64,000 nt of DNA from an uncultured Poribacteria bacterium. Lineage in GTDB: Bacteria > Poribacteria > WGA-4E > PCPOR2b. Shown piece by piece: positions 17,632 through 20,111 of this stretch (within the stretch, counting starts at the first letter, position 1; every line of letters begins with the position of its first letter). Where the stretch lies: the NCBI GenBank assembly GCA_958296125.1, contig OY282444.1:4945266-5009265 (forward strand). Direction: 5' to 3'. The translations under genes and the position numbers were made by a program. The notes beneath the pieces were generated by a model. It was not told the origin of the DNA, made no database searches, and worked only from the letters and a program-made list of their open reading frames with translations.

Positions 17632-18486
17632 GTGATTGATTTTTCACGCTCGACGTTTACTTGGCATTCACATCCGTGGACACCGGATCCCTACTATCGC
17701 TATGCCGGGGGTTTTGTGGGACAGCAGGGGCAAGCGTATCATGTCCGATTCGGTCTCGAAGCCAGCTGCGAAATACGGGACGAAGTGAGCGGGTATGTTA
17801 CAAAAATGTTTGTAGGCGCACCGTGTCGTAGCGAGTACACGATTGCGTCCCGAAACATGTTCCAAATTCCCAGCGGTGAGTGGCGCATGGCTTTCAGCGA
17901 TGAATCCCGGTTGGACATTGCGAAAAGACCGAGCAACGAACCGGAAGATGCCTCGACAAACAAGCTGAGTGAAATTTATCAGAGTTATAAGGTTGATGTA
18001 CGTTCGCATTCTAACTTCTCTGAGTTGACAGATGTCGGCGAGATTATTGATGCAACCCTGAACGGTGATCTGTTGAATGCAAAATCGACCTACCATGATC
18101 AAGAACATAACCTCGCGATTTCGGTTGAATATCCCGTGGACGTTATGAACCTGAATGCGGTGGATAAGGAGTTTCAAGTCTGCACAGGTCCCATCATTCT
18201 GCCGGATCTTGCCACTTGGGACGGTCAAGACGTTAGACGGACGTTTTTGGCACAGGTCGCTATCTCCGCATTTGATTGGGTGGAATTTATCTTGCAACGG
18301 GAGGTCGAGGCATCGGAGGCAGAGCGGGAATGGTTAGACAAACCTCGCGGGCGTGATCGTCTGGAGTTGCGTGATCCGAACAATCCGCCGCCCAACTATC
18401 CACCCCCGCGGCCTCGCCCAAACGTTTATAACGAGGTTTGGGAGTTTGAAGCGACCAATGTTGTGTTGCGGGCAAAAAATCCATAG
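17632..18486 (+). CDS. Uncharacterised protein
   Basis: I do not recognise this 284-residue protein. The GTG start at 17632 is supported by AAGGAG about eight bases upstream. There is no signal peptide and no membrane segment. Aromatic residues and predicted beta-rich stretches dominate the first 230 residues. A proline-rich linker (NNPPPNYPPPRPRPN) near residues 250-265 leads to a short tail. It ends 30 bases before the Rpn nuclease gene on the same strand and may share its transcript. Confidence 0.6.
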   Translation: MIDFSRSTFTWHSHPWTPDPYYRYAGGFVGQQGQAYHVRFGLEASCEIRDEVSGYVTKMFVGAPCRSEYTIASRNMFQIPSGEWRMAFSDESRLDIAKRPSNEPEDASTNKLSEIYQSYKVDVRSHSNFSELTDVGEIIDATLNGDLLNAKSTYHDQEHNLAISVEYPVDVMNLNAVDKEFQVCTGPIILPDLATWDGQDVRRTFLAQVAISAFDWVEFILQREVEASEAEREWLDKPRGRDRLELRDPNNPPPNYPPPRPRPNVYNEVWEFEATNVVLRAKNP

Positions 18487-18515
18487 GATATCACGGCAGA
18501 AGTTGTAAGGTGTTA

Positions 18516-19565
18516 ATGATGAACATCCACGACAGCGGGTATAAGAAACTATTCTCAAATCGGACCATATTTCGGCAACTGCTTGAGACATTCGTCAAAC
18601 AAGAGTGGGTCGATTATCTGGATTTCGACAGTTGTGAACCCTTGGATAAATCGTTTATCTCCGAACACTACAAAGAAACCGAGAGTGATTTAATCTACAA
18701 AATCCAGTTTCATGATCGTGAGGTCTACATTTATATTCTCATCGAGTTTCAATCCACCGTTGACCCATTCATGGCGTTGCGTGTGCTCAACTACATCACC
18801 AACTTTTACATGGATTTTCTCGTCAATAACAGAAACGTCAACAGACTGCCGGCGGTTTTTCCAATCGTGTTGTATAATGGAGAAGCACCTTGGACGGCAC
18901 CGGTGAATCTTTCGACGTTGATTGAGCAGAACCCACCACTCGGTGCATTCGCCTTAGATTTTCAGTATTTCCTAATTGCTGAGAACCAATACGGCCAGGA
19001 AGCCTTGTTGAAAATCCGAAACATCGTATCTACGCTGTTTTTGGCAGAATCACATTACGATTTAGATTTGCTGGAGGTAGAGCTGCTAAATCTGTTCTCT
19101 TCGGAGGCGGACAAACAGGCGGTCAGCCTGTTCTTAAATTGGTTCAGGCAGTTGGCACTCCACGGACGGATTGAATCTGGAGATTACCAGTCACTTGAGT
19201 TCATTTACCGCAACGAAGAGGAGGTGAAAACGATGTTAATCACCGCGTTAGAGCGAGAAAGGCAGCAGATTTTTCAAAATGGTCTGCTTGAGGGCAAACA
19301 AGAAGGACGAATCGAAGGTAAACAGGAAGGACGAATCGAAGGCAAACAAGAAGGACGAATTGAAGGTAAACAGGAAGGACGAATCGAAGGTAAGCAAGAA
19401 GGACGAACCGAAGGCAAACAAGAAGGACGAACCGAAGAGAAGATTGAAACTGCAAAGACGATGCTTACCAAGGGAATGGAGATGACACTCATCTCTGAAA
19501 TCACCCAGCTTCCAGAAGAACAACTTTTGCAGTTGAAAGATGAGCTTTCTTCAGCGGAGGAGTGA
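18516..19565 (+). CDS. rpn: Rpn family PD-(D/E)XK nuclease (RpnL-like), with C-terminal repeats
   Basis: This roughly 349-residue protein belongs to the Rpn (recombination-promoting nuclease, formerly transposase_31) family of PD-(D/E)XK enzymes. It opens with HDSGYKKLFSN, and the nuclease core shows acidic residues in KETESDLIYK and the IEFQST motif that replaces the usual ExK. The C-terminal part carries six copies of an eight-residue GKQEGRIE-type repeat (24-base units, about 19290-19435), likely a coiled coil, then a 45-residue end domain. ATG 18516 or 18519 is preferred over GTG 18510, which overlaps the AAGG ribosome binding site. Known E. coli Rpn proteins are antiphage nucleases controlled by a small protein made from an internal start. 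This gene has such a start at 19233. Confidence 0.85.
   Translation: MMNIHDSGYKKLFSNRTIFRQLLETFVKQEWVDYLDFDSCEPLDKSFISEHYKETESDLIYKIQFHDREVYIYILIEFQSTVDPFMALRVLNYITNFYMDFLVNNRNVNRLPAVFPIVLYNGEAPWTAPVNLSTLIEQNPPLGAFALDFQYFLIAENQYGQEALLKIRNIVSTLFLAESHYDLDLLEVELLNLFSSEADKQAVSLFLNWFRQLALHGRIESGDYQSLEFIYRNEEEVKTMLITALERERQQIFQNGLLEGKQEGRIEGKQEGRIEGKQEGRIEGKQEGRIEGKQEGRTEGKQEGRTEEKIETAKTMLTKGMEMTLISEITQLPEEQLLQLKDELSSAEE
19219..19235 (+). promoter_or_regulatory. Internal ribosome binding site and start within the rpn gene
   Basis: AGGAGGTGA at 19219-19227 is a perfect match to the anti-Shine-Dalgarno consensus. It stands eight bases (counted from its AGGAGG core) before an in-frame ATG at 19233. 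It is stronger than the signal at the gene's own start. Confidence 0.7.
19233..19565 (+). CDS. Putative internal small Rpn product (RpnS-like)
   Basis: Initiation at ATG 19233 would make a 110-residue protein identical to the C-terminal third of the Rpn nuclease: a MLITALERERQQ opening, six GKQEGR repeats and the end domain with LISEITQLPEEQLLQLK. In E. coli, rpn genes produce a small internal product that blocks the toxic full-length nuclease. The in-frame start with a perfect ribosome binding site suggests the same here. Independent support comes from the downstream gene at 19571, which duplicates this reading frame from the same start codon. Expression and inhibition are inferred. Confidence 0.6.
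   Translation: MLITALERERQQIFQNGLLEGKQEGRIEGKQEGRIEGKQEGRIEGKQEGRIEGKQEGRTEGKQEGRTEEKIETAKTMLTKGMEMTLISEITQLPEEQLLQLKDELSSAEE
19294..19437 (+). repeat. Tandem 24-bp coding repeats (GKQEGRIE)
   Basis: About six 24-base units inside the rpn gene encode GKQEGRIE with minor changes (I to T, E to K). A second array of four units lies at about 19629-19725 in the downstream duplicate. Copy number would be expected to vary between strains. Confidence 0.85.
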
Positions 19566-19570
19566 GTACA

Positions 19571-19867
19571 ATGTTAATCACCGCGTTAGAGCGAGAAAGG
19601 CAGCAGATTTTTCAAAATGGGCTGCTTGAGGGCAAACAAGAAGGACGAATCGAAGGTAAACAGGAAGGACGAATCGAAGGCAAGCAAGAAGGACGAACCA
19701 AAGGCAAGCAAGAAGGACGAATCGAAGAGAAGATTCAAACTGCAAAGGCCATGCTTGCCAAGGGAATGGAGATGACACTCATCTCTGAAATCACCCAGCT
19801 TCCAGAAGAACAACTTTTGCAGTTGAAATACGGGTTTCCCTCAGTGTCTGAACTGCGTAAATCCTGA
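19571..19867 (+). CDS. Standalone duplicate of the Rpn C-terminal small protein
   Basis: This 98-residue protein begins with the same MLITALERERQQIFQNGLLE as the internal rpn start, has four rather than six GKQEGR repeats, then the same end domain up to LPEEQLLQLK. After that the sequence changes to a new tail ending SELRKS, whose codons resemble the AACTGCGTAAGTCCT end of the adjacent inverted-repeat element. The ATG at 19571 follows AGGAG (19558-19562) by eight bases and starts five bases after the rpn stop. It is probably cotranscribed with rpn and could act as an extra inhibitor supplied in trans. It might instead be a nonfunctional duplication, but its reading frame and ribosome binding site are intact. 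Confidence 0.65.
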   Translation: MLITALERERQQIFQNGLLEGKQEGRIEGKQEGRIEGKQEGRTKGKQEGRIEEKIQTAKAMLAKGMEMTLISEITQLPEEQLLQLKYGFPSVSELRKS

Positions 19868-19878
19868 CCTTATACTAT

Positions 19879-20056
19879 TAGGACTTACGCGCTTCGGTTG
19901 TGAAAATCGGGTCCGATTTCCGACTGCCTATGACTTTGACATCCGACCATGGAAATTCACTCGTGGCCACAGTGCTCCGATGGATCGGGGTTAGGAAACC
20001 TGCCACCACGATAGGGGTTGCCCCAAGATGCTGATTGCCCAACTGCGTAAGTCCTA
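19879..20056. mobile_element. Small inverted-repeat element (MITE-like) between rpn and cinA
   Basis: TAGGACTTACGC at 19879-19890 and GCGTAAGTCCTA at 20045-20056 are a perfect 12-bp terminal inverted pair bounding about 178 bp of noncoding DNA. A third, imperfect end (AACTGCGTAAATCCT) lies at 19851-19865 within the last codons of the preceding small gene. No transposase is present, so it would depend on one elsewhere. Confidence 0.6.
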
Positions 20057-20111
20057 TAATTTTTAACATCAACCAAAGTCTTAAACGTTATTTTAACAAA
20101 AGAGGCATTTC

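Follow-up and report, generated by a model that had tools for sequence, protein, structure and literature searches.

A putative gene-within-gene Rpn toxin–antitoxin locus of Poribacteria with a stand-alone, out-of-register RpnS paralogue

What is a second, free-standing copy of RpnS for, when it follows directly an rpn gene that appears to encode its own RpnS from an internal start? The question is raised by a stretch of 64,000 nucleotides, hereafter the window, from the genome of an uncultured Poribacteria bacterium (assembly GCA_958296125.1, contig OY282444.1, positions 4,945,266 to 5,009,265). The main text of Zhong et al. (2023; PMC10327210) describes RpnL, RpnS and a downstream stand-alone RpnS, so that the toxin–antitoxin principle, the internal start and the variation in repeat number are already published. 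In the window, the anatomy of the locus can be read directly from the DNA and its translation.

18510 (GTG) and 18516 (ATG), plus strand: alternative in-frame starts of rpn
18519–19565, plus strand: rpn (rpnL), Rpn/YhgA-like nuclease gene, 348 aa, assigned with PF04754 and TIGR01784
18525–19052, plus strand: N-terminal PD-(D/E)XK nuclease domain of rpn (Pfam stretch 3–178)
19219–19227, plus strand: internal Shine-Dalgarno sequence of rpn, AGGAGGTGA
19233–19565, plus strand: putative internal RpnS frame, 110 aa, from the internal ATG (conserved Met; homology to RpnA-S, 7TH0)
19293–19436, plus strand: six GKQEGRI/TE octads, equal to twelve tetrads, of the parent rpn, from the translation
19556–19562, plus strand: GGAGGAG, Shine-Dalgarno sequence of the stand-alone rpnS, provided by the final codons of rpn beside its TGA stop
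19571–19867, plus strand: stand-alone rpnS paralogue, 98 aa, starting 5 nt after the rpn stop (AlphaFold2 model and sequence)
19631–19726, plus strand: four octads of the stand-alone rpnS, 16 residues fewer than in the parent

The initial annotation of this DNA had recognised an Rpn nuclease gene, a kind known for its anti-phage activity, and this assignment is supported by the scores of the protein against PF04754 (E=7.8e-30, 104 bits with a cut-off of 21 bits) and TIGR01784 (76 bits with a cut-off of 52.1). The Asp of the motif ESDL and the Glu/Gln of EFQST are intact in its nuclease domain, and in an alignment of 21 sequences the active-site residues D60 and Q81 are invariant and E79 is kept in at least 90%. 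AlphaFold2 modelled RpnL with an alpha/beta core, and a structure search of the PDB with this model, whose pLDDT is 68, placed several nucleases among the top matches, none of them at E<0.02. For the C-terminal part, a profile of 18 sequences recovered E. coli RpnA-S (PDB 7TH0) with E=5e-4. The stand-alone RpnS was predicted to form a long helix (residues 3–63) with two short ones, in agreement with the description of RpnA-S; in a Foldseek search this model matched 7TH0 at rank 3 with a TM-score of 0.82 on the target, but with E=1.2. PF14261 (DUF4351), a name given to some stand-alone RpnS proteins, had no match at E<=1, and none of the PADLOC models matched the system of the window.

The strong ribosome-binding site claimed inside rpn is present, since AGGAGGTGA lies 5 nt before the in-frame ATG at 19233. 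The use of this start, which had also been proposed, is strongly supported by a comparison of rpn genes. Of 115 distinct genes, 30 belonging to type 1 and 85 to types 2 and 3, the majority have a Shine-Dalgarno sequence and an internal ATG just before the repeats. The internal Met is conserved in 25/25 type-1 genes; in type 2, the corresponding column holds Met in 63/84 genes, and in several of the rest a Met follows one or two codons later. The ribosome-binding site is kept as well. The Glu four codons upstream, whose codon belongs to the Shine-Dalgarno sequence, is encoded by GAG in all 25 type-1 genes (background 46%, p=3e-9) and in all 79 type-2 genes (background 38%, p=5e-34), although, since the genes are related, there are fewer independent observations than these p-values imply. 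Together this makes GAG in 104/104 genes, as against about 40% elsewhere. Glu codons outside the Shine-Dalgarno core are mostly GAA (15/15 at position -6 in type 1 and 45/50 at position -2 in type 2). Codon positions for this test were set by the protein alignment and not by the Shine-Dalgarno sequence, which avoids the circularity of a gene set selected for that sequence. The pattern indicates that the Shine-Dalgarno sequence within rpn is under synonymous-site constraint, an argument independent of the duplication. Because both the Met and the Shine-Dalgarno codons are conserved, use of the internal start is very probable.

The second reading frame that had been noticed just after the rpn stop is likewise found, with its own Shine-Dalgarno sequence, and the lengths given for the two products and the reduction from six octads to four are correct. 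The DNA of the 3′ part of rpn and that of the copy share repeats of 171 and 217 nt, with 92–93% identity and a spacing of 290 nt, which is far beyond chance. The copy had been taken for an exact duplicate of the internal product, and in this respect the initial annotation does not hold: it is 16 residues short and ends in KYGFPSVSELRKS in place of the KDELSSAEE of the parent. The last codons of the stand-alone gene are apparently supplied by AACTGCGTAAATCCT, at 19851–19865, the end of a MITE-like repeat related to the one that lies downstream. At the other edge, rpn stops at the TGA of 19563–19565 and its final codons, GAG GAG TGA, double as the Shine-Dalgarno sequence of the copy. The position of the start, only 5 nt past this stop, together with a Shine-Dalgarno sequence taken from the last codons of rpn, suggests that translation of the stand-alone rpnS is coupled to that of rpn.

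The genome of the host consists of one contig of 5.16 Mb and has nine rpn genes. Two further features describe the setting of the one in the window.

18483–20093, no strand assigned: segment with rpn, rpnS and the MITE-like repeat, absent from the orthologous intergenic region in 5/5 congeneric genomes
19879–20056, plus strand: MITE-like repeat with terminal inverted repeats of about 19 nt and the ends TAGGACTTACGC...GCGTAAGTCCTA, found by repeat comparison

In the five congeneric genomes the same neighbours (an aldo-keto reductase gene, a gene of 284 aa and cinA) enclose a short intergenic region without rpn, so that the presence of rpn, rpnS and the MITE-like repeat at this site is lineage-specific. 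Parts of the MITE-like repeat are matched at 13 other places in the genome. A partial second cinA lies at G000:C1:983090-983561; it encodes a fragment of 129 residues, 92% identical, with a frame-broken 3′ part and is probably a pseudogene. Another locus of the genome, L076 (G000:C1:548500-558000, minus strand), holds four almost identical rpn genes in tandem and a fifth, truncated one in which the internal start is retained. Only two members of this array agree in repeat number, and it adjoins a gene whose start (YIDPPYNTGNEGW) resembles a site-specific DNA methyltransferase. Downstream of the stop codons in the four array genes and in the rpn gene of locus L078, short remnants of the start of a copy were detected, with 19–20 of 28 bases identical, above every shuffle, and the copy in the window has the same junction as that of locus L077. 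From the remnants and the common junction it follows that the duplication is ancestral in the clade, with decay of the copy at most loci since then. The copy in the window is one of the two intact survivors of its junction found in the host genome. A search of viral contigs for phage-borne RpnS with the RpnL alignment gave two distant loci.

Stand-alone copies are recurrent in the phylum. Up to 1.5 kb downstream of the rpn genes of the Poribacteria sampled, truncated C-terminal copies were found after about twenty genes; 16 parents have at least one intact copy, with its start codon aligned to the internal start and mostly with a Shine-Dalgarno sequence. The short reading frames homologous to the C terminus, for which the initial annotation had suggested a search, are therefore found in relatives. 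The left edges of homology lie 3–82 nt upstream of the internal ATG, with the single exception of the truncated copy of the L076 array, where homology begins 123 nt upstream. The E. coli rpnE/ypaA locus has the same junction, its copy beginning 12 nt upstream of the internal ATG. All 12 junction classes (eleven of Poribacteria and E. coli rpnE/ypaA) fall within 90 nt upstream, a result with p of about 4e-9 if junctions were distributed uniformly from -300 to +150 nt around the internal ATG; classes were judged by eye, the L076 array copy was left out and independence is approximate. Selection for an intact ribosome-binding site would yield the same pattern of junctions. These results modify the claim that the duplication boundary falls at the internal start. 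The coincidence is seen again in further Rpn lineages as well as at the E. coli locus, but the joint in the window is the ribosome-binding site and not the ATG. As an argument for use of the internal start, the boundary is to be read with caution, as the window does not represent an independent event given the ancestral duplication.

Some loci are more elaborate. At L079 (G000:C1:1171500-1175000) the rpn stop is followed by three tandem RpnS copies, the first two of which are fused in one frame that again holds an internal Shine-Dalgarno sequence and ATG, and one gene of L127 has two S copies. The stand-alone RpnS proteins of L129 and L137 have a non-repeat insert, similar to FVAGYSKTIAESIAKGIEPNLALGVK, which is not in their parents.

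The relationship between each copy and its neighbour was described by the register, defined as the number of residues from the Met to a conserved anchor past the repeats. In the window it is 57 residues for the stand-alone RpnS and 73 for the parent RpnL. Among 19 stand-alone copies of Poribacteria, none equals its parent; the differences range from -24 to +28 residues, and in 18 of the 19 pairs they are divisible by four. Matching registers were also absent from the 12 E. coli rpnE/ypaA loci sampled, which comprise seven register combinations. According to the main text of PMC10327210, one extra tetrad in either RpnC-S or RpnC-L abolishes inhibition, and inhibition is restored when both have it. 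If this rule, derived from a single E. coli protein whose repeats are tetrads, holds for the octads of the window, the stand-alone RpnS would not be an effective second inhibitor of its neighbour. The proposal of the initial annotation that the nuclease has two sources of inhibitor is thus doubtful, with a copy four tetrads out of register and no matching pair among those sampled in either group of bacteria. Selection for repeat mismatch was considered and rejected: paralogous RpnL pairs with at least 85% identity mismatch as often, with equal registers in 3/49 pairs compared with 0/14 parent–copy pairs. As mismatch is no commoner than between paralogues, the repeats change fast and drift freely, and nothing indicates that a copy is kept in register with its neighbour.

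Constraint on the copies was estimated from pooled non-repeat codons. The pN/pS was 0.27–0.37 between parents and copies, depending on the pairs included, and 0.28–0.32 between parents. The copies thus appear to be about as constrained as the S domain inside RpnL, to which gene conversion could contribute. Over 45 codons, the pair in the window differs by 3 synonymous and 6 nonsynonymous changes, a sample too small for such an estimate on its own.

The reading preferred here, with a probability of roughly 0.55, is that of a gene-within-gene Rpn toxin–antitoxin accompanied by a translationally coupled, out-of-register stand-alone RpnS paralogue that does not act efficiently on the neighbouring RpnL. 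By analogy with E. coli, RpnL would be a toxic nuclease neutralised by the RpnS made from the internal start. The stand-alone paralogue would have originated by a duplication with its left edge at the internal ribosome-binding site, and both S proteins are presumably made. Because it is four tetrads shorter than the helix of its neighbour, the stand-alone RpnS would most likely be poor at neutralising the adjacent RpnL and would most likely dimerise with itself. Its likeliest roles would be that of an RpnS of different specificity, directed to another RpnL in matching register, and that of an exchangeable C-terminal cassette. It is rather unlikely that the copy serves instead as a second antitoxin that raises the dosage against the adjacent RpnL. 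Such a role would agree with the shared domain, the strong Shine-Dalgarno sequence, the coupling to the RpnL stop and a constraint similar to that of S inside RpnL, as well as with the production of stand-alone RpnE-S in E. coli reported in the main text of PMC10327210; it is opposed by a repeat number that never matches the neighbour, by the loss of RpnC neutralisation with a single extra repeat and, in the window, by the altered C-terminal tail. Intact copies after 16 parents, mostly with a Shine-Dalgarno sequence, and a parent–copy pN/pS near the parent–parent value make it improbable that the copy is a non-functional leftover, that is, a decaying fragment of a tandem duplication whose left edge was set by short homology between the gene end GAGGAGTGA and the internal Shine-Dalgarno sequence GAGGAGGTGA. 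This explanation draws on the GAG-GAG homology shared by the two edges in the window, the short S-start remnants after the array genes and the disrupted copies in L054, L122, L131 and L116-S2, but left edges recur with other junction sequences, also in E. coli.

Within the preferred reading, the cassette role can be extended to the unlikely proposal that stand-alone RpnS cistrons act as a store from which C-terminal cassettes are swapped in by recombination between the internal and the stand-alone starts. Such an event would remove the original C terminus and join the nuclease to that of the stand-alone gene. Three single-gene E. coli rpnE alleles (L165, L166 and L167) have this structure, with a nuclease that ends in the stand-alone tail (...SEADLAANNH) and, beyond it, the DNA that adjoins ypaA on its downstream side, and rpnE fusions of the stand-alone tail to the nuclease are mentioned in the main text of PMC10327210. 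Their structure is that of a C-terminal swap; recombination between the two S starts gives it, and the reverse event, a duplication, also fits. If the proposal is true, the oligomerisation and antitoxin domain of the nuclease would be swapped in one step, altering the specificity of the toxin–antitoxin, and both partners would stay matched after the swap because they are encoded by the same DNA. It would also represent a form of variation in defence systems with a ribosome-binding site as the joint.

Compared with the main text of PMC10327210, what appears to be new, although priority is not certain, is the detailed picture of Poribacteria, the recurrent joint at the Shine-Dalgarno sequence, the tandem S copies and the consistent register mismatch; that stand-alone copies differ from the repeat number of their neighbour is not stated in that main text. 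The mismatch makes it testable what a stand-alone RpnS is for and whether register alone decides pairing. A related use of repeats is known from the HsdS subunits of EcoR124I/II, cited in the same main text, where specificity likewise changes with how many four-residue repeats a helix contains, but there it is the DNA-spacing specificity of a restriction enzyme and not the pairing of toxin and antitoxin. The RpnS of the window resembles RpnA-S (7TH0) in its three helices with the repeats inserted in the first, whereas its first helix reaches about 60 residues because of the repeats and identity is low (34%). The closest known arrangements are rpnE-ypaA (rpnES) and rpnC-rpnCS of E. coli (PMC10327210), with an internal-start antitoxin in rpn and a downstream stand-alone RpnS; the rpnE copy, too, follows the rpn stop immediately, and its repeat number is unlike that of its neighbour. 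In contrast to rpnE and rpnC, the locus of the window belongs to Poribacteria and not to Enterobacteria, has octad-type repeats and a replaced tail, and its copy starts 5 nt past the stop with a Shine-Dalgarno sequence encoded by the last codons of rpn, and some loci of Poribacteria carry two or three S copies. The combination of RpnL, internal RpnS and stand-alone RpnS published for E. coli is thus met again, with the same joint, in a distant phylum.
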